Source: Deltaproteobacteria bacterium (lineage in GTDB: Bacteria > Desulfobacterota > Desulfuromonadia > Desulfuromonadales > Geopsychrobacteraceae). Taken from it: DNA of 64,000 nt. Of this stretch, positions 22,321-43,232 are shown piece by piece. Where the stretch lies: the NCBI GenBank assembly GCA_024280335.1, contig JAJRQI010000061.1, forward strand, positions 1 to 64,000, in the 5' to 3' direction. The translations under genes and the position numbers were made by a program. The stretch's first letter is position 1. Each line of letters opens with the position of its first letter. The notes under the pieces were generated by a model. It saw only the letters and a list, made by a program, of their open reading frames with translations. It had not been told where the DNA came from and made no database searches.

Positions 22321-22848
22321 ATGTCACCTACTCCAATCCTGTTAATGCTCCTGTTCTTCCTTCCCTTTACTTCTCTAGCGACGGAAGACAATCAACAGCA
22401 ACGCTTCGATCAGATCATGAAGATGAAAATGGCACAGATCACCGAAGCGACCGAAGAATTGCTGGACCGAAAGTATCCAGATCACGATTGGGATCAGTAC
22501 AATTTTCCTGACTACGCATTTCTCAATGATGGCATTGAGATGGGGTACCGGATTGCGGTTGTTGCACCGGAGCTGCTGGGGAAGATCAATGCTGAAGCGA
22601 CCGATCAGGGGATTCCTTGCTACTGTTTTTGTGGTGCCATGGGGCATCGTGACTTATTGGCCTGCTTTCTCAAGGATGGAAAGCTCGACAACGGCTACGA
22701 CGACCATGCCTCCGGTTGTAATATTTGTTATGGCCAGGCGATGCTGGCTTTACTCTGGCAGGACGCTGGGGCCAGCCATGATGAGATTCTTGCCGGTATG
22801 AAAGTTAAGTTTGCCCGCTTGATACAGATGCGCGAAAAGAATCAGTAG
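22321..22848 (+). CDS. exported PCYCGC-motif protein
   Basis: The protein has 175 residues with a signal peptide (LLMLLFFLPFTSLA). The core has PCYCFCGAMGHRDLLACF at about residues 99-116 and HASGCNICYGQA about 20 residues later, giving six Cys and several His in a short span. This is the PCYCGC family of exported proteins, whose function is unknown; the Cys/His pattern suggests a metal, possibly copper. It lies just before the CusCBA-like efflux genes but is separated from them by 214 bp with a palindrome, so co-transcription is uncertain. AAAGGA precedes the ATG. Confidence 0.75.
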   Translation: MSPTPILLMLLFFLPFTSLATEDNQQQRFDQIMKMKMAQITEATEELLDRKYPDHDWDQYNFPDYAFLNDGIEMGYRIAVVAPELLGKINAEATDQGIPCYCFCGAMGHRDLLACFLKDGKLDNGYDDHASGCNICYGQAMLALLWQDAGASHDEILAGMKVKFARLIQMREKNQ

Positions 22849-22919: not shown

Positions 22920-23062
22920 CTGTTTGGGGCAGGCTTCACTTTTACGGAAAACCGGCCAGATCGTGGGCCGCAATCTGTTGGCACATAAATTGATATTGTA
23001 TTCGCAGGTAGGTGATTACCGAGGCTGGGATCCTGGCCATATTTAATTGTAGAGGAGAAATA

Positions 23063-24370: not shown

Positions 24371-24372
24371 TC

Positions 24373-25713: not shown

Positions 25714-25876
25714 GAAGAGGGCACCGAAGAGCTGTTTAAATAAACCGGGTTCGACGTTCAGGGTTCGATGTTAGAAGTCGAATGCCCTGTCTTGCCCGTA
25801 GCTGATTTGCTGCGCGCCTGAGAGCCTATGGGTTTTATGCCGAACATTAAACACCGAATAAGGGACGGGTTTTGTG

Positions 25877-28800
25877 ATGCTTGAAAATTTAATTGATTGG
25901 TCGATTAAAAATAAGTTTATGGTGATGTTGCTGACCTTCTTCATGGTCATCGGCGGGCTCTATGCCATCAGTAAAACCCCTCTGGATGCCATCCCCGACC
26001 TGTCGGATGTGCAGGTCATCGTCTTCACCGAATACCCGGGACAGGCCCCCGAGGTGGTCGAGGATCAGGTCACCTATCCGCTGACGACCCAGATGTTGGC
26101 GGTGCCGAAGGCCAAGGTGGTCCGCGGCTACTCCTTCTTCGGTTTCTCCTTTGTCTATATCATCTTTGAGGACGGCACCGATCTCTACTGGGCCCGCTCG
26201 CGGGTGCTGGAGTATCTGAACTATGCCGCCGGCAGGTTACCCAAGGGAGTCACCCCGAGCCTGGGACCTGATGCCACCGGGGTCGGCTGGGTTTACGAGT
26301 ATGTGCTGGAGAGTGATCAGCACGATCTGCAGCAGTTGCGTTCGATTCAGGACTGGTTCTTACGTTACGAATTGACCGCCGTCGACGGCGTCTCGGAAGT
26401 CGCCTCCATCGGCGGTTTCGTTAAACAGTATCAGGTCGAGATCGATCCCGATCGTCTGCTGGCCTACCATCTGACCATTCCGCAGATCAAACACGCAATC
26501 CAGCGCAGCAACAACGATGTCGGCGGCCGGCTGATCGAAATGGCCGAGACCGAGTTCATGGTGCGCGGCCTCGGCTATATCAAATCAATCGAAGATTTGG
26601 AGCTGGTGGTGATCGGGACCGACATGCGCGGCACGCCGATCCTGCTGCGTGATCTGGCACGGATTCAGATCGGACCGGAACTTCGACGTGGGGTGGCCGA
26701 GCTGGACGGCAAGGGCGAAGCGGTCGGCGGCGTTGTTATCATGCGCTTCGGCGGCAACGCTCTCAAGACCATTGAAAACGTCAAGGAGAAACTTGAGGAA
26801 CTCAAGTCCGGGTTGCCCGAAGGGGTTACCATCAGAACCGTTTATGACCGCAGTGGCCTGATCGAGCGCGCGGTCGATAACCTGGCCGAGAAGCTGCTTG
26901 AAGAGAGTATCGTCGTTGCGGTGGTTACGGCACTCTTCCTGTTCCATATTCCCAGTTCACTGGTTGCTATCCTGACCCTGCCGATCGCGATCCTGATGGC
27001 CTTCATGGTCATGTACTGGCAGGGGATCAATGCCAACATCATGAGCCTGGGCGGGATCGCCATCGCCATCGGCGCAATGATCGACGCCGCTATCATCATG
27101 ATCGAAAATGCCCACAAACACCTGGAGCGCGATCGCGGCAAAAAACCGCATTGGGAGATTATTGCCGACTCCTGCAAGGAGGTCGGGCCCTCGCTCTTCT
27201 ATGCACTGCTGGTCATTACCGTCTCCTTTTTCCCGGTCTTTACCCTGGGTGAGCAGTCGGGACGGCTGTTCAAGCCGCTGGCCTATACTAAGACCTACGC
27301 CATGGCCGCCGGAGCGCTGCTTTCGGTGACGCTGGTGCCGGTGCTGCTGGGCTGGTTTATCCGCGGAAAAATACCCGCAGAACAGAAGAACCCGATCAAC
27401 CGGTTCCTCTTTTGGGCCTATAATCCGATGGTCGATTTCGTCATCAGATGGCGTAAAATGGTGCTGCTGGTTGCGCTGCTGCTTACCCTCTCGATTGCCT
27501 TTCCGATGTCGAAGATGGGTTCAGAGTTCATGCCGCCGCTTTATGAGGGCGACCTGCTCTACATGCCGACCACCCTGCCCGGTATTTCGGTAACCAAGGC
27601 CAAGGAGTTGATGCAGCAGACCGACCGGATTATCAAAAAGTTCCCCGAGGTCCATCATGTCTTCGGCAAGGTCGGTCGCGCCGAGACCGCCACCGATCCG
27701 GCACCCTTGTCGATGATGGAAACCACCATCATGCTCAAGCCGGAGGAGGAGTGGCGTAAGGTTGAGACCGAACGTTTCTACGACACCTGGCCCGATTGGA
27801 GCCAAATGCCGCTTGGCTGGATCTGGCCGAAGCAGGTGACCATCACCGTCGCTCAGCTGATGACCGAGATGAATGATGCGATCCAGTTTCCGGGCCTGAC
27901 CAACGCCTGGACCATGCCGATCAAGACCCGGATCGACATGCTTTCGACCGGGATCAAAACTCCGCTCGGGATCAAGGTCATGGGTGACGACCTGTCGGTG
28001 CTGTCGGGCATCGGTAAGGAGATCGAGGTGGCGTTGCGTGATATCCCCGGCACCCTCAGTGTCTATTCAGAACGGGTGGTCGGCGGCAACTATCTCGATT
28101 TCGAGATCGACCGGGTGGCGGTGGCCCGCTACGGCCTGACCGTCGGAGATGTGCAGGATACTATCCAGTCGGCGATCGGCGGCATGAATGTGTCGCAGAC
28201 CGTCGAAGGTCTGGAGCGCTATCCGATCAACATCCGCTACGCCCGCGATTACCGCAACGACCTGCAGTCGTTACAGCGGGTGCTGGTCCCGATCCCCGGC
28301 GGCAAGCATATCCCGATCTCCCAGGTGGCCGAGATCGTGATCCGCAAGGGTCCGCCGAGTATCAAGAGCGAGAATGCCCGCCGCACTGCCTGGATCTATG
28401 TCGACATTACCGGCATCGATATCGGCACTTATGTCAAAAATGCGCAGAAGGTGGTGGAGGAGAAGATCCAGTTGCCGCCGGGCTACAACCTGATCTGGAG
28501 CGGGCAGTACGAGTATATGGAAGCAGCGGAGGCCCGGCTCAAGGTGGTCATCCCGTTGACCCTGCTGATCATCTTTGTCATCATCTATATCAGCACCAAG
28601 TCGTTGGTCAAGACCGGGATCATCTTCGTCGCCCTGCCGCTGTCGATGGTCGGTTGTTTCTGGTTCCTCTGGGTGCTCGATTATAATATGTCAGTGGCGG
28701 TCTGGGTCGGAATCATCGCCCTGGCGGGGATCTCGGCGGAGACCGGAGTGGTGATGCTGCTCTACTTGGATCTGGCATACGATCTCTGGAAAGAGAACAA

Positions 28801-29092
28801 CCGGATGCTCAATCGCGGTGACCTGGTCCAGGCGATCCACCACGGCGCGGTCAAGCGGATCCGGCCGAAGATCATGACCATCTGCGTCATTATCGCCGGT
28901 CTGTTGCCGATTATGTGGAGTCATGGCGCCGGTGCCGACGTGATGAAACGAATCGCCGCACCGATGGTCGGCGGGGTGGTCACCTCGGGAGTGATGGAGC
29001 TGCTGGTCTTTCCGGTTATCTACTTCATTTGGCGACAGCGGGGCCTGGATAAGACCGCCGAACCGACGGCATTGGAAGAACTTCACGACTAA
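25877..29092 (+). CDS. cusA: CusA-type RND heavy-metal efflux pump
   Basis: This is the proton-driven inner membrane pump of about 1071 residues (CusA has 1047) with twelve predicted helices and two large periplasmic loops. The second loop keeps LYMPTTLPGIS, PLSMMETT and RIDMLSTG, which carry methionines equivalent to the CusA metal-binding set (Met573, Met623, Met672). These favour Cu(I)/Ag(I) over the divalent CzcA type. Charged residues of the proton relay are visible in the transmembrane IGAMIDAAIIMIENA segment. ATG25877 is used; a GTG at 25874 precedes it. A 160-bp spacer separates it from cusB. Confidence 0.9.
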   Translation: MLENLIDWSIKNKFMVMLLTFFMVIGGLYAISKTPLDAIPDLSDVQVIVFTEYPGQAPEVVEDQVTYPLTTQMLAVPKAKVVRGYSFFGFSFVYIIFEDGTDLYWARSRVLEYLNYAAGRLPKGVTPSLGPDATGVGWVYEYVLESDQHDLQQLRSIQDWFLRYELTAVDGVSEVASIGGFVKQYQVEIDPDRLLAYHLTIPQIKHAIQRSNNDVGGRLIEMAETEFMVRGLGYIKSIEDLELVVIGTDMRGTPILLRDLARIQIGPELRRGVAELDGKGEAVGGVVIMRFGGNALKTIENVKEKLEELKSGLPEGVTIRTVYDRSGLIERAVDNLAEKLLEESIVVAVVTALFLFHIPSSLVAILTLPIAILMAFMVMYWQGINANIMSLGGIAIAIGAMIDAAIIMIENAHKHLERDRGKKPHWEIIADSCKEVGPSLFYALLVITVSFFPVFTLGEQSGRLFKPLAYTKTYAMAAGALLSVTLVPVLLGWFIRGKIPAEQKNPINRFLFWAYNPMVDFVIRWRKMVLLVALLLTLSIAFPMSKMGSEFMPPLYEGDLLYMPTTLPGISVTKAKELMQQTDRIIKKFPEVHHVFGKVGRAETATDPAPLSMMETTIMLKPEEEWRKVETERFYDTWPDWSQMPLGWIWPKQVTITVAQLMTEMNDAIQFPGLTNAWTMPIKTRIDMLSTGIKTPLGIKVMGDDLSVLSGIGKEIEVALRDIPGTLSVYSERVVGGNYLDFEIDRVAVARYGLTVGDVQDTIQSAIGGMNVSQTVEGLERYPINIRYARDYRNDLQSLQRVLVPIPGGKHIPISQVAEIVIRKGPPSIKSENARRTAWIYVDITGIDIGTYVKNAQKVVEEKIQLPPGYNLIWSGQYEYMEAAEARLKVVIPLTLLIIFVIIYISTKSLVKTGIIFVALPLSMVGCFWFLWVLDYNMSVAVWVGIIALAGISAETGVVMLLYLDLAYDLWKENNRMLNRGDLVQAIHHGAVKRIRPKIMTICVIIAGLLPIMWSHGAGADVMKRIAAPMVGGVVTSGVMELLVFPVIYFIWRQRGLDKTAEPTALEELHD

Positions 29093-29164
29093 CTGACATT
29101 ATAACTAACGTGGCGAAAGCCGAAACGCGGATAAACCGTATCAAACCTATGAATGGAGGAAACA

Positions 29165-29683
29165 ATGAAAAGAACAACAATCGCAATCCTGGCCATACTC
29201 TGTCTGTTGCTGCCGTTTACTGCTCTTGCCGGGGATGGACATGGCATGAAGATGGATATGGACAAAGGTATGAAGATGGGTAAAGACAAAGGCATGCACA
29301 TGGACATGAAGATGCCGAAGGGTATGATCATGCTGGAAAATGAAGTGGTTGAGGGTATTCTGGGGATGGGCCACCTGAAGGATCTTAAGGCCGGTATGGG
29401 CAAGATGAAAATGGGTGGCAAGATGAAGATGGACGGCACCCACAATTTTTCTGTGATGTTCCAGAACCCCGAAACTAAAGAGTATGTCACCAAGGGGAAA
29501 GCCGCGCTCAAGGTTGAATCTCCGAACGGTGAAACCGGTAAAGCGATCATGCTGATGGGGAAAGGTGGTAATTTTGCTGCAGATATCACCCTGACAGAGC
29601 CGGGCGAGTACCACTTCTATGTCGCGACCAAACTGGCCGACGGTCAGAAGCGCAAGTATCATTTTCACTACGATTTCAAATAA
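29165..29683 (+). CDS. methionine-rich periplasmic metal-binding protein
   Basis: The protein has 172 residues with a signal peptide (AILCLLLPFTALA). Residues 22-60 are a Met/His/Lys/Asp-rich stretch with many M-x-M and M-x-x-M spacings (HGMKMDMDKGMKMGK), a Cu(I)/Ag(I)-binding composition. Another MGKMKMGGKMKMDG block follows. The C-terminal half (about 100-172) reads as a beta-sandwich ending in EPGEYHFYVATKL and HFHYDF. It closes the efflux operon, where E. coli has CusF as the metallochaperone, so an analogous role is inferred; it is not a CusF homologue by visible motifs. GGAGG precedes ATG29165. A strong terminator follows. Confidence 0.75.
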   Translation: MKRTTIAILAILCLLLPFTALAGDGHGMKMDMDKGMKMGKDKGMHMDMKMPKGMIMLENEVVEGILGMGHLKDLKAGMGKMKMGGKMKMDGTHNFSVMFQNPETKEYVTKGKAALKVESPNGETGKAIMLMGKGGNFAADITLTEPGEYHFYVATKLADGQKRKYHFHYDFK

Positions 29684-31468: not shown

Positions 31469-31978
31469 ATGAAATTTCTGTTGTTGACTGTTTCTTGTTG
31501 TCTCTGGCTGACGGCATCGGCATGGGGGCTCAGCTATTATTGCCGCGACAGCAACGGGACTGAATTCTTTGCCGACAGTCCGGAATGGTTGCCGGAGAGC
31601 TGTCAGGGAGAGATTTGGCAATTAGAACAACAGGATCCTCCCGCCGCATCGACCTCTGCGCCAGAGTCCACTGCTCCTGCAGAAAAAGAGGAGAACCTGC
31701 TGGAGCGGATGATCGAAGAAGATGTGCTAGCAATAAAGGTCGAACAACTGAAAGCGCAGACCGGAGCCGCAGTTGAAAAATATGATCAGGGGAGCAGTTT
31801 GCTTGACGTTTCCCCACGGCGCTTGCGCTACGGCCGCAGGGAACGCACGGAAAAAGGAAAAAAACTGATCCTTGAGGCGCAACAGGCCAAACAGGAAATT
31901 CTGAATGAGCTTGAAGTGTTGCAGTTGGCCCCGAAAAATCGGCAGGAGATTGAAAATCAACTCGAATTGATCAAGTGA
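31469..31978 (+). CDS. hypothetical exported protein
   Basis: The protein has 169 residues with a signal peptide ending near ASAWG. A short N-terminal module follows with two Cys (YYCRDSNGTEFFADSPEWLPESC, about residues 22-44), resembling the small DUF4124-type fold that reads a C-x-D-x-G-x-x-F-D segment. After a Pro/Ala/Thr spacer, the C-terminal 95 residues are charged and likely coiled coil (QAKQEILNELEVLQL). No partner is evident. TGGAGG lies ahead of the ATG. Function unknown. Confidence 0.65.
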   Translation: MKFLLLTVSCCLWLTASAWGLSYYCRDSNGTEFFADSPEWLPESCQGEIWQLEQQDPPAASTSAPESTAPAEKEENLLERMIEEDVLAIKVEQLKAQTGAAVEKYDQGSSLLDVSPRRLRYGRRERTEKGKKLILEAQQAKQEILNELEVLQLAPKNRQEIENQLELIK

Positions 31979-32277: not shown

Positions 32278-32577
32278 GTGACCAGTGTGTTCAAAGACTG
32301 TCTCGGCTGCGGTTTGCCGACCGAAGCGCCTTCAATCCTCTGCTCACGCTGTGCGGAGCTGGTTGATCTGGATCGATATCGTCAGCCTGAGTCCAAGTTT
32401 TCAGACCGCCTGAAGATGGCAAGCCTAGGTGAAACGCTGCCCGATCTTTTGCAAAAAATGATTCCCCCCGGACTGACTCTCGTGGCAACCCTGGCAGGAA
32501 TTTTGGCGGTAAATGCCGTCCTCTGCCAGTTGTCCGGCCACGATTGCAGTTTGTTCGTTCCCTGCCTGCTTGCTTAA
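32278..32577 (+). CDS. small zinc-ribbon membrane protein, hypothetical
   Basis: The protein has 99 residues. The N-terminus has two CxxC pairs (CLGCG and CSRC, about residues 8-27), an apparent zinc ribbon. A single hydrophobic segment lies near the C-terminus (LTLVATLAGILAVNAVL). The layout suggests a membrane-anchored ribbon protein. The start is GTG32278 with a TGGAGA site upstream. Function is unknown. A clear terminator follows, which supports expression. Confidence 0.5.
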   Translation: MTSVFKDCLGCGLPTEAPSILCSRCAELVDLDRYRQPESKFSDRLKMASLGETLPDLLQKMIPPGLTLVATLAGILAVNAVLCQLSGHDCSLFVPCLLA

Positions 32578-32865: not shown

Positions 32866-33399
32866 TTAGTCGTGATGCAGCATAGCGGGTGCGGATGGCG
32901 CAGCCGGTTGCTTCTGCAGAGAGAGCAGATAGTTGATCAGATGCCAGCGCTCGGCGGGACTGAGATTTTTAAACGGCGGCATCCCGGTGGCACCGGTCCC
33001 GTTGCCGATAATCCAGAATTTTTCGCCCGGATTGTACATACCGCTGTGTTGTACATCGAGGAAATTTGCCGGAGCTGTCGGTAATGCCGCTGCCGCCGGT
33101 CCCTGGCCATCCCCCTTGTCCCCATGGCAGACGGTGCAGTTTCGGCCGTACAACTTCTTGCCCTGTGCCAGCGAATCCTCATCGGGGGCGATCGGCGTAC
33201 GTTCCATCACCCGGTAGTCTTCCGGAACCTTGTCCTTGACCGCTGTCATGGCCTGCATATGTTGGTTCATTTTCCCTTTTTCCGGATGCTTCTTCTTGCC
33301 GTGGGCGAAGGCAGAATCACTCCAGACGGCGGTGAAAAGGAACAGACTGCAGAGAACAGTCAGCGAAAAGAGGATGGTTTTTCTGTTGTTGGCATACAT
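32866..33399 (-). CDS. mono-haem cytochrome c
   Basis: The periplasmic electron carrier has 177 residues with a signal peptide (LCSLFLFTAVWSDSAFA). One CTVCH haem site lies near residue 88. GMPPFKNLSPAERWHLINYL gives the distal Met ligand and the C-terminal helix of a class I cytochrome c. A His/Lys-rich stretch follows the signal. It is the last gene of the minus-strand redox block, 40 bp after the seven-haem cytochrome, and is likely its electron partner. Confidence 0.85.
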   Translation of the reverse strand: MYANNRKTILFSLTVLCSLFLFTAVWSDSAFAHGKKKHPEKGKMNQHMQAMTAVKDKVPEDYRVMERTPIAPDEDSLAQGKKLYGRNCTVCHGDKGDGQGPAAAALPTAPANFLDVQHSGMYNPGEKFWIIGNGTGATGMPPFKNLSPAERWHLINYLLSLQKQPAAPSAPAMLHHD

Positions 33400-33439
33400 A
33401 GGCTCACTTCCTTCTGTTCAGGGGGCATTTCCGCCCAAG

Positions 33440-34270
33440 TTATTCCTCAAAGAGGCTCTCCGCCTCTTCCACTTTCAGTTGTTTCAGCCATTGCCGGTAC
33501 CAGGGCGGATGACCGATATCCAGCCAGGAGGGGGTGCTGTGGCACATGTAGCAATCTCCCACCCGGCCCGGCATCTTTTTGAAATGTCCCTTGAAATGGC
33601 TTTTCGGTGCCTTGTGGCACTCGAAACAATCGCTGGAGCGGCCGGTGGGATGCCGGTAGCCCGGGATCGTCCAGGCTTGCACCTGGTGGCAGGCTGCGCA
33701 GTCCCGACCGAACAGTCCGGTGTGAATATCGCTGCCCGGATGACAAGCGTAGCAGTTCAGCAGTCGCTCTTCGGCCGGCAGCTGAAAAGATTGCTCTGCG
33801 GTCATTTCGGCAGCGTCCTGGTGTTGCAGCCACATCTCGATCTGACCAACCAAGAGCCCAGGTTCATCAGTTAATGATCCGGAACTTTTCAGTCGTTTCA
33901 GGATAAGATTCGACAGCCGGGCGTGATCCATGCGGGTCGGCGGCAGGTCGCGGCCCAGATGCTCCGGGTGGCAACCGATGCAGTTGCCGATATCGGCATG
34001 AAAGATATTCTCCGGCCAGCCCAACAGCCGCTCATCAAGGGCATGGCAAGCGATACAGTCGATCTCGTCGATACCGCCGAAGCTGGAGTGACAGGCGGCA
34101 CAGTCGTTTTCCAGGCGCGCATGGGCAGCGGAGAGCTTTCCCGGTGAGGTCAGCTGCTGCCAGACGGCGGCCTGTTTAAAAAAGCTATCTTCCGGAGTCG
34201 CACTCCAGAGTATAGCTAGTATTGTCAGGCTGATGGTCGTCAATAGCCATCTGTTTGTCTTGATTTTCAT
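33440..34270 (-). CDS. seven-haem cytochrome c
   Basis: The protein has 276 residues. An N-terminal hydrophobic segment (LLTTISLTILAILWS) is an anchor or uncleaved signal. Seven CxxCH haem sites are visible: CAACH, CIACH, CIGCH, CYACH, CAACH, CFECH and CYMCH. There are three before and four after a haem-free stretch of about 80 residues, suggesting two domains like a cytochrome c3-type module plus a second cluster. Further His residues can act as distal ligands. It lies between the membrane cytochrome b-like gene and the mono-haem gene. I do not recognise a named family. Confidence 0.85.
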   Translation of the reverse strand: MKIKTNRWLLTTISLTILAILWSATPEDSFFKQAAVWQQLTSPGKLSAAHARLENDCAACHSSFGGIDEIDCIACHALDERLLGWPENIFHADIGNCIGCHPEHLGRDLPPTRMDHARLSNLILKRLKSSGSLTDEPGLLVGQIEMWLQHQDAAEMTAEQSFQLPAEERLLNCYACHPGSDIHTGLFGRDCAACHQVQAWTIPGYRHPTGRSSDCFECHKAPKSHFKGHFKKMPGRVGDCYMCHSTPSWLDIGHPPWYRQWLKQLKVEEAESLFEE

Positions 34271-34341
34271 CCTTTATTGTTCCATTACGTTAGTCAAAAC
34301 TATGGACTTTAGTCCAAGCCTTTCAGGTGCTACTCATATTT

Positions 34342-34412
34342 CGTCATTCCCGCGAAGGCGGGAATCCAGTTTTTTTTATAAAGCGTGGATCCCCGCATTC
34401 GCGAGGATGACG
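34342..34412. repeat. CGTCATTCCCGCG palindromic repeat, copy 1
   Basis: CGTCATTCCCGCG with CGGGAATCCAG at the left and GGATCCCCGC with GCGAGGATGACG at the right give two adjacent hairpins in a 71-bp snap-back. A second, longer copy is at 47831-47949. This copy lies inside the redox gene block, between the cytochrome b-like gene and the seven-haem gene, in a 219-bp spacer. Confidence 0.75.
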
Positions 34413-34489
34413 GTTGAAGTCGTTTCCGGCTTTGGTTTTAAAGGGAATTCCATTCCCCACCAAAATTCTGCACTTTAGAGAAGGGTGGT

Positions 34490-35251
34490 TTATTGAAACC
34501 ATCTCAAGCCGAAGTGCAGGCTTGCCCAGATATGGAAAAACAGCAGCAGGTAGAGCAGCAGCGAGATAGCGATATGCCACTTGAGCCAACGAGAGAACCA
34601 TTTTTTAAAACCGTCATGCATGAAAATCGCATTTTCCACATCGGCGATCGCCTCGACATGGCGCACGACCGCCAAAGGTTCGATGGTTCGCTGCCGATCG
34701 GCCGTATCAGCAGGGTTCAGCAGGGCGGTCGTCAATCTGCGCCTGAAACTGGCGAAGGGCCGGAGCGCGGCCAGCTGTCCGGGATCGGCGGCCACTGCAG
34801 TTGCCAGCTCGCTATAAGCCAGGTTCAGGGTTTGCAACTGGGCCTGCTTTTCTCTGAGCCCCCGGCCGACCCGAACGAGCAGGTAGCGGCCGACAAAGCC
34901 GCTTAAAACGACGATCAGGGTCAGCAAGGTCAGCAGCAGCCCCAGCCAACTTGCAAACTTATGGCCGGTGTGGATCAACACCAGCAGCGGCCCGACCAGC
35001 CCGGCGTAAATGTGCCAGGCCAGCAGGGTGCGCATCTTGACGCGCCTGGTGACGGCGGCTTTAAGCGGTTTGATCCGCTTGATGATGTAGTAGAGCAACG
35101 GCACCAGCATCAACAGACCACCGCTGACGCCCAGCAGGCCGCCGGTCGGACTGCCGGCAAAGCGCGGCGAGACATGCAGCAGCGCTCCGGACCAGAGGAA
35201 CAGGATGATGACGACCAGCGCCGAAGCGATCAGTTTTTCTTTCTCTTGCAT
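34490..35251 (-). CDS. membrane protein, cytochrome b-like (putative haem-binding)
   Basis: The protein has 253 residues with about five or six membrane helices. His residues are placed in helices as in di-haem membrane cytochromes: LAWHIYAG and LIHTGHKF in the third helix pair, and WLKWHIAIS and LLFFHIWASLH near the end. Between them is a soluble, charged loop of about 90 residues. This pattern suggests transmembrane electron transfer as in ferric-reductase or cytochrome b561-like proteins, though no named family is certain. The start ATG35251 lies 5 bp after the oxidoreductase stop; an earlier in-frame start would add an Arg/Gly-rich tail overlapping it. Confidence 0.7.
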   Translation of the reverse strand: MQEKEKLIASALVVIILFLWSGALLHVSPRFAGSPTGGLLGVSGGLLMLVPLLYYIIKRIKPLKAAVTRRVKMRTLLAWHIYAGLVGPLLVLIHTGHKFASWLGLLLTLLTLIVVLSGFVGRYLLVRVGRGLREKQAQLQTLNLAYSELATAVAADPGQLAALRPFASFRRRLTTALLNPADTADRQRTIEPLAVVRHVEAIADVENAIFMHDGFKKWFSRWLKWHIAISLLLYLLLFFHIWASLHFGLRWFQ

Positions 35252-35256
35252 CGCGC

Positions 35257-37203
35257 TCAAGCCTCGATGATCAGATCGGTGCGGGCCACGGCTTGACAGG
35301 CCAGGATCATCCCCTGTGCCTTGTCGTCCGGATGCAGACCCTCCTCGCTGGCCATTTCGACCTCGCCGGAAAGGAGTTTGACCGCACACATACCGCAGCT
35401 GCCGGCCCGGCAGGAGGAATCGATCTCAACCCCGAGGCGCTCTGCAGCTTCGAGAACCGTCTCATCGGTCTGCAGCTGTCCCGACTTTCCGGAGCGCTGG
35501 AAGCTGATGGTTGCGCCGGTCGTTGTTGTGCTTACGCTTTTGGCAGGCGCAGCTTTTTTCGGCGTTGCGGGTGGCCCGAACAGCTCGAATTTGATCTGCT
35601 CCTTCGGCACCCCGAGTTGCGCAAGCATGGCCTTGAGCGCCTCCATCATCGGTGGTGAACCACAGAGATGAATCCGTTTTGCGGTAATCTCAGGCACCCA
35701 TGCGGCGAGCCGCTCGCCGGTCAGCATGCCCGCGTGGAACCCATCGGTCTCCTCTGTGAGATCGCTGATGAGGATAAAGCTCTTCAGATTGGGATTGCGC
35801 CGCTTGAGGATGTTCATCTCATCGGCAAAAATGAACTCCTCGCGCGTACGGCAGGCATAAATAAAATACAACTCTCCACTCCAGCCGATGTCGAGCATCG
35901 CCCGTGCGACGCTCATCATCGGTGTCACCCCGACCCCGCCGCCGATCAGCACGATACTTTCTGCTTCCTTGCCGGTAAAGATGAAACGACCGGACGGCGG
36001 CTGCACTTCGAGGGTGTCGCCCTGTTTGACGACATCATGCAGATAGCGTGATCCGACCCCCTGTTCCTCCCGTTTTACGGTGATTTCGCAATAGTAGCCC
36101 TGGGTCGGCGAGGAGGAGATGCTGTAGTTGCGCTTGATCGTCTTCCCTGCATGCGGGATGCTGATGGTCAGAAACTGACCCGGCTGATAACTGAAGGGGA
36201 TCGAGGTGCCGTCACAGGCGACCATGCGAAAGGTTTTGACCTCGGGGGTCTCCTGGTAAATCCGCACCACCCGCAGTCGGCACAGCTTGCGTGTTCCGAC
36301 CTCCAGCAGTCCCTCGCTCTGTCCGGTCTTTTCTGCCGCGCTTGAGCAACAGCCGGGTTCGGTATCTGCGGCCGGAGGGGCCGTCCTTGCGGCTGGTGCG
36401 TCTTCGGCGGCCGCCAAAGTGGGGCCGACTGGCGGGTCGGCAGTCAACCGTGCCAGCAACTGTGAGGTCCGACGCACCTTGAGTAGATAGATGGTCACCA
36501 GGGTTAAACCGATAAGCAGGGAAAAGAGGCAGATGAACAGGGAGAACGGCGTCATGCCGAACAGCTGGAAGCCGGAGCGCATCGCGGCCGGCGGTAGCAG
36601 GTTGAGCTGGGATTTGTACCATTGTAATGCCGTTCGCTGCGGGGCAATCCCTGCGTTCAACGCCTGACGTACGGCGAGCCCGCTGCGGAAGCGGGACAGG
36701 CCTGCTTCGATAGCAGCGGCTTCAGTCCGCATGGCGGCCAGATCATCACGTCCCTGCGCCTGAGTGAAGTCGGCAAACCCTTTATGCAGTTGAGCGACAC
36801 CTGCGGATTCCATCTGTCGGGCGCGCTCAAGCAGGGTGGTGCGCTGTTCGGTTGAGAGCTCCGGAAATTTGATCAGCGTTGGAAACAGCTCGCTCGACTT
36901 GGGTCGCGCCATCGCTTTCATCATCGCTTTCATCCCGCCGCCGCCCATGCCGCCGGATTTTCCGCCCATCCCCATACCGCCGGGCTTCTTGTCCTTTTTT
37001 TCCATCCCCATGCCGGTGTCATCGGTTGTTGCGGGGGCGGTATCGCTTGCGCCGGGGTGATGGCTTTTGTGCTCCTCGGGACTGGTTTGCGCCTGGGTCA
37101 AGGCTGGCGTGAGTATCAGCGCAATCAGGGTCAGCAGGATGACGATTTTGATCAGTGGCAGGCTTTGTCGGTCAGGAGTTTTTACTGGCAGTAGTCGGGG
37201 CAT
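35257..37203 (-). CDS. Met/Gly-rich membrane FAD/NAD(P)-binding oxidoreductase with C-terminal 2Fe-2S ferredoxin domain
   Basis: The protein has 648 residues with four parts. Residues 1-100 hold an N-terminal hydrophobic segment and a His/Met/Gly-rich stretch (GMGMGGKSGGMGGGGM). A helical region and a membrane helix follow near 220-240. A ferredoxin-reductase module spans about 305-530, with FAD motif RNYSISSSP, NAD motif GGGVGVTPMMS, and CGSPPMMEA. A plant-type 2Fe-2S domain forms the last 90 residues (C-x4-C-x2-C in CRAGSCGMC plus a distal Cys in LACQA). The reductase halves resemble those of hybrid-cluster or phenol-hydroxylase reductases. The membrane-tethered, metal-rich N-terminus is unusual. 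It probably feeds the cytochrome b-like protein 5 bp downstream. Confidence 0.85.
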   Translation of the reverse strand: MPRLLPVKTPDRQSLPLIKIVILLTLIALILTPALTQAQTSPEEHKSHHPGASDTAPATTDDTGMGMEKKDKKPGGMGMGGKSGGMGGGGMKAMMKAMARPKSSELFPTLIKFPELSTEQRTTLLERARQMESAGVAQLHKGFADFTQAQGRDDLAAMRTEAAAIEAGLSRFRSGLAVRQALNAGIAPQRTALQWYKSQLNLLPPAAMRSGFQLFGMTPFSLFICLFSLLIGLTLVTIYLLKVRRTSQLLARLTADPPVGPTLAAAEDAPAARTAPPAADTEPGCCSSAAEKTGQSEGLLEVGTRKLCRLRVVRIYQETPEVKTFRMVACDGTSIPFSYQPGQFLTISIPHAGKTIKRNYSISSSPTQGYYCEITVKREEQGVGSRYLHDVVKQGDTLEVQPPSGRFIFTGKEAESIVLIGGGVGVTPMMSVARAMLDIGWSGELYFIYACRTREEFIFADEMNILKRRNPNLKSFILISDLTEETDGFHAGMLTGERLAAWVPEITAKRIHLCGSPPMMEALKAMLAQLGVPKEQIKFELFGPPATPKKAAPAKSVSTTTTGATISFQRSGKSGQLQTDETVLEAAERLGVEIDSSCRAGSCGMCAVKLLSGEVEMASEEGLHPDDKAQGMILACQAVARTDLIIEA

Positions 37204-37248
37204 GGAGCAACTCCAGATGGAAAAAAGAATCGAGTTGAACTTAGTATG

Positions 37249-37623
37249 TCAGGTCGTGGGCAGAAGCATCTCGATGGTGCGCAGCAGATCCTTGGTACTG
37301 ACCGGCTTGGCCAAAAAATGATGGCCGCCGATCAGGTTATGGCCATCGGCCGTATCATCGCGGGTGACGATGGCGGTGAGAAAGACCAGTTTTATATTTT
37401 GCAGCCGTGGCTCCGCCCGGAGCTGTTCGGCAATTGCGTCGCCGGGAAGGTCCGGCATCATGATGTCGAGAAAAATGATATCAGGATCAAAGTCGAGGGC
37501 AACCCGGATCGCATTTTTACCACAGTTTTCTGTTCTGACGGTAAACTTTCCGGTACGCTCGAGGTTCAGCTTTATCATCCGCGTCAAACCGGGCTCGTCA
37601 TCAATAACAAGGATTTTTTTCAT
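37249..37623 (-). CDS. single-domain response regulator (receiver only)
   Basis: The protein has 124 residues and only a receiver domain. DDE near residues 8-10 is the acidic pocket, Asp53 or so in IIFLDIMMPDLPG the phosphorylation site, and Lys106 or so in FLAKPVS the conserved lysine. No output domain is present, so it must act by protein contact or in a phosphorelay. It starts 12 bp after the kinase stop and ends 45 bp before the oxidoreductase start, so the three are likely co-transcribed. Confidence 0.88.
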   Translation of the reverse strand: MKKILVIDDEPGLTRMIKLNLERTGKFTVRTENCGKNAIRVALDFDPDIIFLDIMMPDLPGDAIAEQLRAEPRLQNIKLVFLTAIVTRDDTADGHNLIGGHHFLAKPVSTKDLLRTIEMLLPTT

Positions 37624-37635
37624 TTCAGACTCCCT

Positions 37636-39372
37636 CTAATCGGTTTTGAAGATAATTGTTATGCAAAGTCCACCGTTATCACGGTTGCTTAATTCGATTT
37701 CCGCCCCATGCAGATCGAGGATATTTCTGCAGACATACAGCCCCAGTCCGCTCCCTTTTCCCACTGGCTTGGTGGTGTAGAACGGATCGAAAATCTTGTC
37801 CATATCCTCTTTGCCGATACCGGGGCCACTGTCGGCAATCTCAGCGACAAGAACTTTTTTACCGGGTGAACCGGACTGATAAGTCGAAATCTGCAAGGTA
37901 CCGTTACGGGGCATCGCCTGGACCGCGTTATGCACCAGATTGATGAAGACCTGGTGGATCTTGTTTTCGTCGAGCAGGATTTTCGGCAGCTGACCTTGTA
38001 GTTGCAGATGAACCTGAACGCCGTTCTGCGACAGTATGTGCCGAACCAGCGTCAACGAGTCTTCTATCACCTTGTTTAAACTGCAGAGTTCTCTCGACAG
38101 TTTTTTCTCGCGGGAAAAATCGAGCAGACTGTTGATGACCGAATCTGCGCAGCTGACGGCAGTCTCCATATCCTGAACGACATCCTGACAGGTCTGGTCC
38201 AGCACCAATTCGTCCCTGACATAGTCGAGTCCCAGGCGAATCTGCATCAACGGGTTTTTTACTTCGTGGGCGACACCGGCGGCCAAACTGCCGATCGACT
38301 CCATTTTGGCCGCCCGGATCAACTGTAACTGTGTCTCTTTCAGCTCGTTGTGGGAGCGGTTCAACTGTTCATAGGCTTCCTGGATTTCCATCTCTGCCGC
38401 CGTTCGCCACTCCAGTTCCTTTTTCAGGTTACGGGTCCGTGCCGCAACCTGTTGCCGTAAGCTTCGATTCCAGAGAATGAAACCGAGAAAAGTCAGCAGA
38501 ACTGTCGCCAGACCGGAGAAGAGCAGGGTCCAGAAGGTTTTTCCCATGATCAGCGTCGGGGCTTTCAGGTGAATCCACTGCCGAGAAATCGCCTCATGTT
38601 CCTCATCGCTGATACCGGCCAGAACTTTCTCCATGATGCGGTTCAGTTCCGGCCAGTCTTTGCGCGTGGCAATCCCCAACTCGAGATCTTTTTCTACCCG
38701 ACCGACAATGTTGATGTCGGTCATCCCTTCACGGTGGATATAGTAGGAGGCGGTTGCCATATCACTGACCAGGGCAGTGACTTTGCCTTCAGAGATCGCT
38801 TCGAGAGCCGTCGCCACGTCCGACATGGAGGTGATCTGGAGTTGCGGAGAGTTTGCGCCGATAAAGTGGCCCCATTGCCGCCCCTTGACCACCGCGACCT
38901 TTTTTCCGGTGAGTGAGGCCAGGTCTGGATATTTGTCTCCAGCAACGATGACTCCGGGGAAGACAATGTGCGGGCGCGCAACCTGCATCGACTGTGCAGG
39001 GACTGAGGTCCGCGCCGTTGCCGCGACAATGTCAACTGCGCCGGATTTGATGTAGGCTTGCAATTGCGCCGGGTTTTCAGCCCGGAGAACTTTGAAGCGC
39101 ATCCCCAGACGCTGTTCCAGCAACGCGATATAATCGGCTGCTACGCCGCGATAGGTTCCGCTATCGTCAAAAAATTCAAAGGGATAAGACCGGGCTTGGG
39201 TGACCAGGACGATTTCCGGATGCTCAGCGAGCCATTTTCGTTCGGCTTGACTCAAGGAAACTGCCGCCGCAACATCGGTCGCCAGAGTCAGTCCTGTCCA
39301 TGGCAGCAGGCTAATCAGAAGTGAAATGAGAATCAGACGCTTGAGGTATTTACTGAGTGAATCAAACTCCAT
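37636..39372 (-). CDS. sensor histidine kinase with periplasmic solute-binding (PBPb) sensor
   Basis: The protein has 578 residues. A signal/TM segment leads to one bacterial solute-binding family 3 domain (about residues 42-270), which should bind a small ligand in the periplasm. A second TM helix (about 280-300) and a coiled coil come next, then HisKA with the phospho-acceptor His in GVAHEVKNP and a HATPase with N, G1 (DSGPGIG) and G2 (GSGLGLYV) boxes. The order is that of EvgS/BvgS-type sensors but with a simple kinase end. It heads the redox block, so it may control it or report on it. The ligand is unknown. Confidence 0.9.
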   Translation of the reverse strand: MEFDSLSKYLKRLILISLLISLLPWTGLTLATDVAAAVSLSQAERKWLAEHPEIVLVTQARSYPFEFFDDSGTYRGVAADYIALLEQRLGMRFKVLRAENPAQLQAYIKSGAVDIVAATARTSVPAQSMQVARPHIVFPGVIVAGDKYPDLASLTGKKVAVVKGRQWGHFIGANSPQLQITSMSDVATALEAISEGKVTALVSDMATASYYIHREGMTDINIVGRVEKDLELGIATRKDWPELNRIMEKVLAGISDEEHEAISRQWIHLKAPTLIMGKTFWTLLFSGLATVLLTFLGFILWNRSLRQQVAARTRNLKKELEWRTAAEMEIQEAYEQLNRSHNELKETQLQLIRAAKMESIGSLAAGVAHEVKNPLMQIRLGLDYVRDELVLDQTCQDVVQDMETAVSCADSVINSLLDFSREKKLSRELCSLNKVIEDSLTLVRHILSQNGVQVHLQLQGQLPKILLDENKIHQVFINLVHNAVQAMPRNGTLQISTYQSGSPGKKVLVAEIADSGPGIGKEDMDKIFDPFYTTKPVGKGSGLGLYVCRNILDLHGAEIELSNRDNGGLCITIIFKTD

Positions 39373-39720: not shown

Positions 39721-41166
39721 TCAGAAACTCAAACCATGTGCCAGCGTGATCGAGTAGCCCTCGTCAGAGAACCCGACATCCAGGCGAAACTGAGTGGATC
39801 GCTCGAAACCGAGACGCAGACTACCGCCCCAGCTGTCATGGATCTCGGAACGACCGAGGGCTGACAGATCTTTGGCGACGGAGCCGGCATCGTAAAACAG
39901 GGCTCCGCCAAGCCGCTCAATCCGGATGGCATCGGTAAAGGTGATCCCGCGGGGGAGAAACCAGAAACGGTATTCGGCACTAGCATGCCATGCGGCATCG
40001 TCTGTCCAGCGGTTGCCGATGTAGCCGCGCAGCGTGTCGCGCCCACCCAGGCTGGGCTTCAGATAGTAGGGCAACTCGCCGTAGGTCCAGCGAAGAAACG
40101 AGTTGAATGCGAGCACGTCGGTGGGCGGGTTCTCTTCGTTTGGATCTCCGCCGTCGTGAAACAGGGCAGGCACTTTGAAGGTGTAATTTCCGTCAGCCTG
40201 CATAATCGCCGCTGCCGGTTCTCCATCCCGCCAGGGCGCCAATTCAGCTGAAATTCCGATCATTCCGCCCTTGTATGGATTGATCGGACTGTCCCGCCCG
40301 TCCAGCCGCAGACCGGCTTCCAGCCAGAAGGCAAGGTCTTCCTCTCCGGCAGCGAAAAGAGTGGGAAACGCTTCGGCCGTATTCGAGACCTTCGAGACAA
40401 ACCCGTTGGATATTTCGTGGCTCTCGAGCCGAAGGCCGGCTCGTCCAACCAGGTTCTGCATTGCCGCAAGCGGGGTGCCCTCCAGTGCCACCTCCGCCAG
40501 CCTGACCTTGTCGGAATAACTTGTCTCGTCAGCTTCTTTCGTCCCGGCTCCCAAGCCGAAAAAACGGCGGGTGAGGGTTTTTTCGTAATCGAGAATAACG
40601 CTCAGAAAAGACCTTTCCTCGAAAGCGATTCCTCCAGATGGCACTTCGATGTGATTTAACCAGCGCAGCCAGTGCGCGAAGTAGCGCTGCTGACCTTCCG
40701 TTGTATAGCTGGCCTTCAGGATGACGTGATCCCGGCGACGACTGTTTAAAAAATCGATGTCGGTGAGGGCGAATCCACCACCGGCTCCTACGTCCTCCTC
40801 AAAGAAAACCACCGGGAGGATGAAGGTGCTGACCAGAAACCGGTCAAGCAGATTGCCGGGCTTGAGGCGCCCTTCAGGAATATAGCGCCAACGTTCTGGA
40901 TTGCGCACGTTCTCGGGGAGTTTGACCCGCGTGATACGGCCGTCCTGGTCAACCCCGGCGAGTGGGTTGTATCCTTTGTCAGCGTTGGGCGCGGAGAGTC
41001 TCCGGCCGTGCGTGACATGGTCAGCCTGAGCCTGTGCGGTGATGGGTATGAAGACGCAAAGCGCCAGGATGCATGTAGCGCACAACCGAGCATAGCGCTC
41101 TACAATAGGATTCCACGACGCTGGTTTTCTGCGTAAAACAGACCTCGGTGAAAAAAATCCGAACAT
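39721..41166 (-). CDS. Omp85/BamA-TamA-type surface antigen family protein
   Basis: The outer membrane beta-barrel protein has about 481 residues with a long signal region ending near AQAQA. Only the barrel domain (bacterial surface antigen) is evident: repeated beta strands ending in aromatic residues, with LRGY in the GGRDTLRGYIG segment as the family's lid-lock motif and a final GFSDEGYSITLAHGLSF strand. POTRA domains are absent or very short, unlike BamA (about 800 residues). Such short members may export or anchor a partner. ATG41166 is used, with GGAG 11 nt ahead; ATG41202 is possible. It starts close after the phosphatase gene and is probably co-transcribed with it. Confidence 0.8.
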   Translation of the reverse strand: MFGFFSPRSVLRRKPASWNPIVERYARLCATCILALCVFIPITAQAQADHVTHGRRLSAPNADKGYNPLAGVDQDGRITRVKLPENVRNPERWRYIPEGRLKPGNLLDRFLVSTFILPVVFFEEDVGAGGGFALTDIDFLNSRRRDHVILKASYTTEGQQRYFAHWLRWLNHIEVPSGGIAFEERSFLSVILDYEKTLTRRFFGLGAGTKEADETSYSDKVRLAEVALEGTPLAAMQNLVGRAGLRLESHEISNGFVSKVSNTAEAFPTLFAAGEEDLAFWLEAGLRLDGRDSPINPYKGGMIGISAELAPWRDGEPAAAIMQADGNYTFKVPALFHDGGDPNEENPPTDVLAFNSFLRWTYGELPYYLKPSLGGRDTLRGYIGNRWTDDAAWHASAEYRFWFLPRGITFTDAIRIERLGGALFYDAGSVAKDLSALGRSEIHDSWGGSLRLGFERSTQFRLDVGFSDEGYSITLAHGLSF

Positions 41167-41213
41167 AATTATTTGTTCTCCGACAATAGAGGGCAGGTGC
41201 ATCCGACAGGTTC

Positions 41214-43142
41214 CTAGACCGCCTTGATCACGGTCAGGGTGATGTCATCCTCCTGGTGGCTATCCATCCGGAAGCGGCTGACCAGTTCCAGGATTGATGT
41301 GTGGATCTGTGCGGCCGGCTCACTTGCTCGGGAGCAGATCAGGGCTTTGAGCCGCTCGGTACCCAGCGCTTTGCCCTGCGGGTTGCGCGCCTCCCAGATG
41401 CCATCGGTGCCGACCAGCAGGATGTCGCCGGCTTCAAATACGAAGGGGACCCCTTCCTCCCAGCTGGTTTCGGCGATGATCCCCAGGGGCAGCCCGGTGC
41501 TACCGAATTCAGCGATGGTTTTATCTCGGCAACGATAGAAAAACAGCGGCCCGTGTCCCGCCGAACACCAATGCAGCATCGTGGTTTTTGCAGTCAGGAC
41601 CCCGTAAAACAGGGTCATGAACTGCTCGTCTGCGATGTCCTGACAAAGATGCTCGTTCAGGGTTGCGAAGAGTGTCGGCAGATTGAGGTCACAGCGGGTT
41701 GCATGAGAGCGTAAAACTCCCCGAGCACCGGCCATCAGCAGCGCCGCACCGATTCCGTGCCCTGAAACATCGCCGACCGCCAGGGCCAGGCAGCCATTTC
41801 CCAGTGGAATAAAATCGTAGTAGTCCCCCCCGGTTTCATCGCAGGGTTCGGATCCGCCGAAAATCTCAAATCCGCTGAGCAGAGGCTGGGTCTGCGGCAA
41901 TAGCTGACGCTGGATATCTCCTGCCAGAGCCAGGGAGCTGGCCATTCGTTCCCGCTCTTCCAGGGCTGGTCCCAACTGGTTGAAAACTTGACCAAGTTCT
42001 GCAACCTCGTCGTTGGTTTCGATCTCCACTCGGGATCGGTAATTGCCACCGGCCAAATTTTCGGCGGCCGTTACCAGGGTGCGAAGCGGGCGAGTCACTT
42101 TTTGGGAGGCCAGAAATGCGGTAAAAAAGACCGCAGTGATAGCACAAATCAGCAACACTCCAGAAATCCCCAACCCTTTGAGGATCTTTTCAACTACATG
42201 ATTTCTTGCGGCAACCGCCTGAGCGATGACCTGAGAGTGGGGCACCAGGATGAGGACGAAAGGCTCCGAATTAGTGGAGCCACTGAAGATCCAGTGAGTT
42301 TCGACCCCTTGAAAACCCATCTTCAGCGAGCCGCCGCGCCCGGTCGAGATCTGCTGCAGCAACAGTTTTTTGTCCTCGGGTTTGTCCGGCTGCAGCCAGC
42401 TCTGTGAGTGCAAATTCTGCCAGAGAGTGTCAGCATCCCCGGTTTCACGAACAGCCAGAATGCGCAGACCGCTCTCTTTTGTCCCCTCCTCCGGTCCGGT
42501 AGCAACCAGCATCTCTCTGGTTCCGCTGAACCAGTTTTCCGACAGCTTCAGATCCTCTAGCATGACTTCTACCGGACGGACCAGGGCGGTGGCGCCGATA
42601 AATTGACCGTCCGCCTCTAGCAGAGGTCTGGCAACCATAACCACCGGCTTACCGCTGACCGGGTCGTTGGCGAGGGTGCGGGTCTGGACCTGTAGCTGGC
42701 GTGTCGTCCGGTACCAGGGCATTTGCCGTGGATCGCTGGCGCCTAGACACTGCTCATGCAACGGGTAACAGGAGGAACGGCCGGTTTCAAGGATGGTGTA
42801 CTGACGCGAAACCGCCCCCGGGCGATAGCTCTGCAGGAAACTGTAAGCCAGCGGCGGAGATGGGTCGGGGGCGAAGGGGACGATCGGGGAGTTGATACCC
42901 TGAACTGCTTGAAGGTCCAGTGCGGCCTCCATTGCATGATGGTCACGTTCCTGAATGCGCTGAAAGCTGTCGATCAACTTATACAGGGCACCGTGTGCCT
43001 GACTGGACAGTTGCCGCTCGGCCTCCTCAGCCAGGTGTACACCTGAACGATAGAAATAATAATGGCTTGTGGCGATGCTGAGCAGCAGCGGAACGACGGC
43101 AAAAATCAGCAGCAGAACCAACAGCTTGTGGCGAATTCTCAT
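41214..43142 (-). CDS. membrane SpoIIE-type (PP2C) serine phosphatase with sensor and HAMP domains
   Basis: The protein has about 642 residues. A TM helix near residues 5-27 is followed by a periplasmic dCache-like sensor region (about 30-310), a second TM (about 325-345), HAMP (about 345-400) and a PP2C/SpoIIE catalytic domain (about 420-640). GDYYDF and AVGDVSGHGIGAALLMA carry the metal-binding Asp residues, and LVGTDGIWEA the later one. Such phosphatases act on anti-sigma-factor antagonists in partner-switch systems, but no STAS or anti-sigma gene is nearby. ATG43142 starts the TM helix; an earlier in-frame ATG at 43184 is less likely. Confidence 0.88.
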   Translation of the reverse strand: MRIRHKLLVLLLIFAVVPLLLSIATSHYYFYRSGVHLAEEAERQLSSQAHGALYKLIDSFQRIQERDHHAMEAALDLQAVQGINSPIVPFAPDPSPPLAYSFLQSYRPGAVSRQYTILETGRSSCYPLHEQCLGASDPRQMPWYRTTRQLQVQTRTLANDPVSGKPVVMVARPLLEADGQFIGATALVRPVEVMLEDLKLSENWFSGTREMLVATGPEEGTKESGLRILAVRETGDADTLWQNLHSQSWLQPDKPEDKKLLLQQISTGRGGSLKMGFQGVETHWIFSGSTNSEPFVLILVPHSQVIAQAVAARNHVVEKILKGLGISGVLLICAITAVFFTAFLASQKVTRPLRTLVTAAENLAGGNYRSRVEIETNDEVAELGQVFNQLGPALEERERMASSLALAGDIQRQLLPQTQPLLSGFEIFGGSEPCDETGGDYYDFIPLGNGCLALAVGDVSGHGIGAALLMAGARGVLRSHATRCDLNLPTLFATLNEHLCQDIADEQFMTLFYGVLTAKTTMLHWCSAGHGPLFFYRCRDKTIAEFGSTGLPLGIIAETSWEEGVPFVFEAGDILLVGTDGIWEARNPQGKALGTERLKALICSRASEPAAQIHTSILELVSRFRMDSHQEDDITLTVIKAV

Positions 43143-43232
43143 AGATTTCACCCCCGTCAGGGTCACAAGGAGCCCCTTGAACACAAGGTTCTATTTTAGG
43201 TGATTACCGTCACGACTCTCTCTTGAATAGAT

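Follow-up and report, generated by a model that had tools for sequence, protein, structure and literature searches.

Copper resistance in Gram-negative bacteria is usually described as efflux combined with the oxidation of Cu(I). In passages that deal with copper reduction, the bacterial cupric reductases named are CcoG and a suggested CupA, and Cu(I) is given as the form bound by Cus pumps and Csp-type stores (PMC7558416; one title in its reference list concerns a cell-free copper reductase from Pseudomonas sp. NA). CcoG is described there as a membrane-associated iron-sulfur (Fe-S) cupric reductase with two Fe-S clusters, cytoplasmic and serving oxidase assembly (PMC7558416, PMC13038864), and CrpH of Bordetella is a proposed PepSY_TM periplasmic copper reductase, for oxidase function and not within resistance islands (PMC13038864, 2026). 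The former paper also describes the eukaryotic Fre/Steap/Dcytb metalloreductases, in which electrons from NAD(P)H and flavin on the inside cross the membrane over b haems and reduce metal on the outside (PMC7558416). Here we describe a three-gene cassette, FAD-CYB-HEPTA, that encodes a flavin and 2Fe-2S oxidoreductase, a cytochrome b-like membrane protein and a seven-haem cytochrome c. It lies on contig JAJRQI010000061.1 of a Deltaproteobacteria bacterium (assembly GCA_024280335.1), in the first 64,000 nucleotides, which were analysed as a whole (the 64-kb window). We give about even chances to the reading that this cassette is a horizontally acquired, NAD(P)H-driven electron exporter for copper stress.

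The cassette stands in a run of six co-directional open reading frames (ORFs) on the minus strand (32866-39372), ordered HK, REC, FAD, CYB, HEPTA and MONO, and ORF and Pfam analysis found all six in place with the domains that a preliminary description of this DNA had named. FAD (35257-37203, 648 aa) is a membrane-tethered oxidoreductase that matches Pfam FAD_binding_6, NAD_binding_1 and Fer2. With hydrophobic segments at residues 17-35 and 222-240, its layout runs from the N-terminal segment through a Met/His/Gly-rich stretch, a helical hairpin and the transmembrane (TM) segment 222-240 to the FAD, NAD(P) and C-terminal 2Fe-2S domains; the N-terminal part is predicted to lie outside and the flavin, NAD(P) and 2Fe-2S domains in the cytoplasm. 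The Fer2 cysteines (598/603/606/636), the RxY[ST] flavin motif, the GGVG and CG motifs, and His 45/48/49, which follow the first hydrophobic segment, are kept in all 25 aligned homologues, and Cys 285-286 in 16 of the 25. The structure model of this protein is weak, with a predicted local distance difference test (pLDDT) score of 67. NqrF and other ferredoxin-NAD(P) reductases likewise have membrane-tethered FAD, NAD(P) and 2Fe-2S domains, but in this protein the 2Fe-2S domain is C-terminal, a further N-terminal domain precedes the TM segment, and no Nqr or Rnf partners are seen adjoining. Two assignments were rejected, namely Na+-NQR subunit F (TIGR01941 at 81 bits against a cut-off of 295, with Fer2 C-terminal) and a fused Spy/CpxP domain at the N-terminus (hhalign probability 0.3% against Spy-like neighbours, the same as for two control profiles).

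CYB (34490-35251, 253 aa) is a cytochrome b-like protein with five hydrophobic segments, predicted to form five membrane helices, and has no Pfam or NCBIfam family match. It carries His80-x13-His94 in TM3 and His226-x13-His240 in TM5, four histidines that are present in all 14 aligned sequences, including three distant paralogues, and that are proposed as ligands of two b haems; the x13 spacing is presumably that of NOX/FRE and similar di-haem proteins. Judging by Lys/Arg-rich loops, His80 and His226 would face the cytoplasm and His94 and His240 the periplasm. CYB gave no match to Pfam Ferric_reduct, for which its homologue at plasmid locus L035 reaches 17.8 bits against a cut-off of 28. The CYB model (pLDDT 77) had zero Foldseek matches at E <= 0.001, and in fold comparison cytochrome b561 (4o7g; Z 8.3, root-mean-square deviation 4.1, 127 aligned residues) and SpNOX (8qq7; Z 7.4, deviation 4.1, 122 aligned) both ranked among unrelated helical proteins. 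HEPTA (33440-34270, 276 aa; Pfam Cytochrome_C7/Cytochrom_CIII) has a hydrophobic N-terminus and is predicted to be periplasmic. Its seven CXXCH motifs and seven further histidines (50, 91, 104, 116, 183, 207 and 225) are invariant in 15 of 15 sequences, a count that would be enough for seven bis-His haems. A search of solved structures with HEPTA and CYB profiles gave no lead.

The complete cofactor path out of the cytoplasm that the preliminary description had drawn is borne out by the FAD, NAD and 2Fe-2S motifs, the double His-x13-His and the seven CXXCH, and the cassette very probably provides a route from NAD(P)H to the periplasm, the cofactor anatomy suggesting outward flow. Electrons would pass from NAD(P)H to FAD and the 2Fe-2S cluster on the cytoplasmic face, then through the two b haems of CYB across the inner membrane and on to the seven bis-His c haems of HEPTA in the periplasm. 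In this arrangement the cassette resembles the Fre/Steap/Dcytb metalloreductases, with which we presumptively group the NOX family, and CYB shares with the FRE/NOX/Steap type the paired histidines in two helices (predicted haem sites). Unlike the single polypeptide of that type, the loci read encode the haem part and the FAD/NAD(P) part on separate genes, and the cassette adds a 2Fe-2S domain and a seven-haem outlet, with CYB lacking a Ferric_reduct match. CrpH, like CYB, is a membrane b-haem protein proposed for periplasmic copper reduction, but it has PepSY domains, for which CYB has no Pfam match, and no flavoprotein or multihaem partner in the passages that describe it (PMC13038864). CcoG carries two Fe-S clusters, whereas the sole Fe-S domain that Pfam found in the cassette is Fer2 in FAD. 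Two CYB paralogues in the window's own genome (G000), on contigs C71 (L093) and C35 (L094), adjoin ORFs with 30, 21, 12 and 37 CXXCH motifs and belong to what we take to be Cbc-type clusters, the cytochrome b and multihaem c clusters of metal reducers. These share with the cassette a CYB-type protein with the same four histidines beside a multihaem cytochrome, but they have far more haem motifs (12 to 37) and no FAD-like FAD/2Fe-2S gene seen adjoining. The preliminary description knew of no described system with this gene set, and among the papers listed in full-text literature searches, whose longer lists were cut at ten, none names it in the title or at the start of the abstract.

To delimit the cassette, we compared its occurrence in other genomes and on plasmids. 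A FAD scan of genome contigs from 84,980 species, which detects only relatives keeping one of six short peptides, gave 22 loci in named genomes of Planctomycetota, Nitrospirota, Nitrospinota and Binatota. The order FAD-CYB-HEPTA is found in 21 of them; in the remaining one (L021) a frameshift affects CYB, within which the contig stops, and contig ends also truncate HEPTA in L018 and FAD in L033. The same order occurs in all 13 plasmid regions read, which comprise four of the best FAD matches (three of them near-identical sphingomonads) and nine chosen to spread over genera; in one region (L062) the HEPTA frame has three CXXCH instead of seven. CYB matched 52 plasmid records, 26 of them typed as conjugative, and the cassette search gave no match among phage records. 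Within the window's phylum, FAD was found at E <= 1e-70 in 2 of 395 sampled genomes (its own and G323), and query A3 matched 35 of them, an overcount resting mostly on a fused DUF547 domain only, with at most three candidates scored per genome in both scans, so that some matches may be missed. The CYB part was matched in six of these genomes (G350, G000, G323, G386, G329 and G287). In the FAD tree the window and G323 are joined (100/100), and a single starred group takes in the Nitrospirota, the Nitrospinota and the Planctomycetota row L020; the placement of several plasmid rows, which have long branches, is unsure. From this gene order and distribution we conclude that FAD-CYB-HEPTA is a separate cassette, spread horizontally across several phyla and plasmids.

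Two observations touch the cassette genes themselves. On a Bradyrhizobium plasmid (L061) there is more than one copy of the cassette, and FAD of the first copy is cut beside an IS3 transposase. CYB has a long C-terminal extension in L012, L014, L018, L025, L029, L030, L031 and L032, which is DUF547 by Pfam in L012, looks alike on reading in the others and is placed on the periplasmic side by topology.

Whether all six genes form one system, as the preliminary description held, was judged from the genes on either side of the cassette. HK (37636-39372, 578 aa) is a sensor kinase with SBP_bac_3, a TM segment, HisKA and HATPase_c; REC (37249-37623, 124 aa) matches Pfam Response_reg only, a single receiver domain, which upholds the described regulator without an output domain; and MONO (32866-33399, 177 aa) has one CXXCH and matches Cytochrom_C. 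A HisKA and HATPase_c kinase adjoining a receiver identifies HK-REC as a two-component pair, and the pair is kept in the congener G008, where the contig ends just after REC, and in G493. In G493, a family member whose genome is 71% complete, HK, REC and MONO are contiguous and cassette-free, with a REC-MONO gap of 44 bp, HK beginning at the contig edge, and identities to the window of 67% (HK), 80% (REC) and 64% (MONO). Beyond MONO, G493 has homologues of the window ORFs 31469-31978 (42%) and 32278-32577 (30%). MONO was found in 4 of 44 family genomes and FAD, at E <= 1e-60, in one, the window's own. The G+C content is 0.60 for FAD and 0.59 for CYB, 0.53 for HK and 0.52 for REC, and 0.555 for the window flanks. 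Because a cassette-free family member has HK-REC-MONO contiguous, the simplest account is that the cassette was inserted between REC and MONO (33400-37248, minus strand, including linkers), probably as a gain here and not a loss in G493. This locus would then show that an older operon and a mobile insert can together look like one tidy operon.

A dedicated two-component-regulated respiratory system of all six genes, for Fe(III) or another acceptor, is therefore very improbable: the genes do share one direction, with short gaps except one, but HK-REC-MONO stands without the cassette in G493, and close homologues of HK, REC and MONO were not found beside the cassette in the other loci examined. 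What is conserved elsewhere is the three-gene core; all six genes together were seen at no other locus examined. More distant cytochromes c do occur near the cassette, in Methylophaga (33% identity to MONO) and Acetobacter (28%), and a kinase lies upstream of the split variants L051 and L053, though its sensor type differs from that of HK. The intergenic gaps are 12 bp (HK-REC), 45 bp (REC-FAD), 5 bp (FAD-CYB), 219 bp (CYB-HEPTA) and 40 bp (HEPTA-MONO). The CYB-HEPTA gap is 3 bp in G323, the closest homologue found (FAD 68% identical), and a single transcript across it is not assured in the window because its 219 bp contain a dispersed palindromic repeat (34346-34367, plus strand), with 77 copies in the genome at up to two mismatches. 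A promoter and terminator scan gave no signal above shuffles. By position, HK-REC may transcribe and control the cassette, and the promoter of the older HK-REC-MONO unit may now drive it.

What the preliminary description left out of account is the copper-resistance setting: copper-resistance genes surround the cassette elsewhere, and a CusCBA-type pump is encoded in the window. We consider a link between the cassette and copper quite probable. Copper markers, most commonly multicopper oxidase and CopB, were found in 9 of the 22 named loci, in 12 of the 13 plasmid regions and in 2 of 5 same-phylum loci, against none of 20 control stretches (18 kb each, at round coordinates in eight same-phylum genomes). 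In these counts some queries were drawn from loci that were themselves scored (L056 owes its place to its own CopC and CopD), the control genomes differ from those of the named loci or plasmids, L057 and L063 each count on one weak marker, and the scored loci are partly interrelated. Spy-like Met-rich proteins occur in 15 of the 22 named loci. CopB was matched in 2885 of 72,556 plasmids, and the 60 best CopB records include 27 of the 52 cassette plasmids, nearly all from sphingomonads, 25 of these 27 with CopB within 15 kb.

On sphingomonad plasmids a heavy-metal MerR regulator precedes the cassette, and after the cassette come DUF1622 and a protein annotated as four-helix copper-binding (20.0 bits to DUF326 against a cut-off of 20.4); CusCBA lies alongside, as does copA-copB in L035 and L037. 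Multicopper oxidase, CopB or Cu-ATPase genes lie near the cassette on Variovorax, Acetobacter, Roseomonas, Spirosoma and Legionella plasmids, CopC-CopD 8 kb from it in Alteromonas, and a resistance-nodulation-division (RND) system with DUF1622 in Pontibacter; the Methylocystis plasmid has just DUF2933 and an isoprenylcysteine methyltransferase-like gene, and the copper-marker screen found none in the Bradyrhizobium region. The Methylophaga plasmid carries a P-type ATPase, DUF411, mer genes about 10 kb from the cassette and its own cytochrome c maturation (ccm) operon. These mer genes would suit a reductase for another soft metal (silver, mercury or gold) that travels with copper islands, as would the fact that Cus pumps also transport silver. 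Since 1 of the 13 plasmid regions read has annotated mer transport genes and multicopper oxidase and CopB are the commonest markers, we see only a slim prospect for such a reductase.

In the window itself, a TolC-CusB-CusA efflux operon of the copper/silver type (23012-29092, plus strand) lies about 4 kb from the cassette genes. Its CusA scores above the cut-off of TIGR00914 (CusA/CzcA), reaches 1227 bits to E. coli CusA against 527 to ZneA, and keeps in alignment three methionines that we take to be the CusA copper site; the adaptor has the CusB model as its best match, below that model's cut-off. CusA is followed by a Met/His-rich, probably exported protein (29153-29683, plus strand), with a homologue in the copA-copB locus of G032 (39% over 119 aa). 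In G032 and G027 the MONO homologue lies behind a MerR/CueR-type regulator, which reaches none of the curated cut-offs; a copper-type P-type ATPase also adjoins it, and copA with a copB homologue follows immediately. The older HK-REC-MONO unit is probably itself copper-linked.

Given this setting, the final electron transfer would most likely be to Cu(II) in the periplasm, yielding Cu(I); the Met/His-rich outer part of FAD, or partner proteins, may be the place where this happens. Cu(II) would be a fitting acceptor because the transfer from NAD(P)H is energetically downhill, the compartment is right, and the product Cu(I) is bound by Cus pumps and Csp-type stores; as the direct acceptor, we give it an even chance at best. 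Cu(I) would then be handled by Cu(I)-specific proteins, the CusCBA-type pump here and the four-helix copper-binding proteins in the plasmid operons. More tentatively, and with some doubt, we suggest that the cassette represents an undescribed mobile reductive branch of copper resistance, in which a reductase dedicated to Cu(II), powered by NAD(P)H, with seven haems as its outlet and distributed over several phyla and conjugative plasmids, makes Cu(I) for export or storage beside the oxidative (multicopper oxidase) and efflux branches. If so, a plasmid-borne cassette that spends NAD(P)H would add a reductive arm to copper resistance and would explain where Cu(I)-specific pumps and stores obtain Cu(I) in an oxidising periplasm, and periplasmic copper reduction would become testable with three genes.

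Several observations, in addition to the origin of the marker queries and control genomes given above, weigh against a copper reductase. Thirteen of the 22 named loci have no copper marker (several of their contigs are cut short), and six have neither a copper marker nor a Spy-like protein, with glutamate dehydrogenase, phosphoketolase and acetate kinase among the neighbours of these six; metabolic genes are likewise neighbours at Planctomycetota loci. No copper marker is seen in the 17 kb around the G323 cassette (just 2 kb on one side), and 4 of the 60 best CopB records carry a near-identical sphingomonad CopB (at least 96%) but are absent from the CYB list. Multicopper oxidases, which are often near the cassette, oxidise Cu(I), the opposite of what a reductase does; a copA-copB pair is present in the window's own genome at C17; and Cu(I) is the more toxic form of copper. 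HEPTA has no obvious open substrate site, because all seven haems are predicted to be bis-His. Finally, NAD(P)H need not be the general donor, because some homologues in the phylum lack the flavin and NAD domains.

These flavin-less homologues take several forms. In G350 (L054, 2322-3362) a 346-aa FAD homologue has its N-terminal/TM part directly joined to 2Fe-2S, and in G329 and G287 separate genes encode a short TM protein and an 88-aa 2Fe-2S protein. In G386 (L051, 8185-8455, minus strand) the 2Fe-2S frame lies between a short TM gene and CYB and contains a TGA precisely at the codon for the first cluster cysteine in its relatives; a hairpin (-21.6 kcal/mol over 75 nt) follows. The frame perhaps encodes a selenocysteine in an iron-sulfur site, or is perhaps a broken gene. 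CYB and HEPTA follow the 2Fe-2S gene in all four genomes, so the minimal wire may run from 2Fe-2S through b haems to seven c haems, with NAD(P)H as the donor only in forms that have the flavin part, such as the one in the window.

The wire-like character of HEPTA also bears on an alternative in which the electrons feed a periplasmic enzyme or repair system under copper stress, for oxidised methionines, disulphides or peroxide, and not copper itself. Seven bis-His haems resemble a wire and not an active site, and electrons could pass next to MONO or to another cytochrome c encoded beside the cassette. Among neighbour clusters found in at least three loci, however, no repair enzyme recurs, and the only periplasm-facing redox proteins recognised are multicopper oxidases, in 8 loci, and a cytochrome b/Rieske pair, assigned by reading in 5 and 4 loci, nearly all Nitrospirales. 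We regard this alternative as unlikely. L015, L016, L019, L024 and L025 are the loci where cytochrome b and Rieske-type genes, identified by reading, stand close to the cassette.

Metabolic neighbours raise a further alternative, in which the cassette is a redox valve that re-oxidises NAD(P)H by way of an acceptor in the periplasm or outside the cell, at times when respiration is blocked by copper or by lack of oxygen, with copper as no more than the setting. Glutamate dehydrogenase-like genes lie within 8 kb of the cassette in 12 of the 22 named loci (two of them analysed with Pfam), phosphoketolase and acetate kinase lie near it in L017, and AdhP, glucan phosphorylase and NiFe hydrogenase are among its other neighbours. 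The split cassettes L051 and L052 are near another seven-haem cytochrome and a protein of about 670 aa without a family, possibly an outer-membrane conduit or porin, for which a solved-structure search with the L052 protein gave no lead, and the own-genome CYB paralogues adjoin the multihaem ORFs described above. This alternative leaves the copper enrichment unexplained, and no multihaem outer-membrane conduit adjoins the cassette in the window, where no ORF in the list other than HEPTA and MONO has a CXXCH motif; it is in our view rather improbable, and we retain electron export for copper stress as the preferred reading.

Further genes were noted around these loci. In L034 the ccm operon of the Methylophaga plasmid begins about 3 kb after the cassette, and on the Alteromonas plasmid (L056) the cassette is followed by NiFe hydrogenase structural and maturation genes. 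A CHRD protein is present in L051, where the kinase has a DUF4118-like part. Before the Cus operon, the window encodes an HD-GYP-type protein with a weak DUF4118-like membrane part (21161-22147) and a PCYCGC-motif protein (22321-22848). Upstream of HK (39721-43184) lie genes for an Omp85-like protein and a SpoIIE phosphatase with HAMP and a weak dCache, and a homologue 60% identical to the latter lies near HK-REC in G008.

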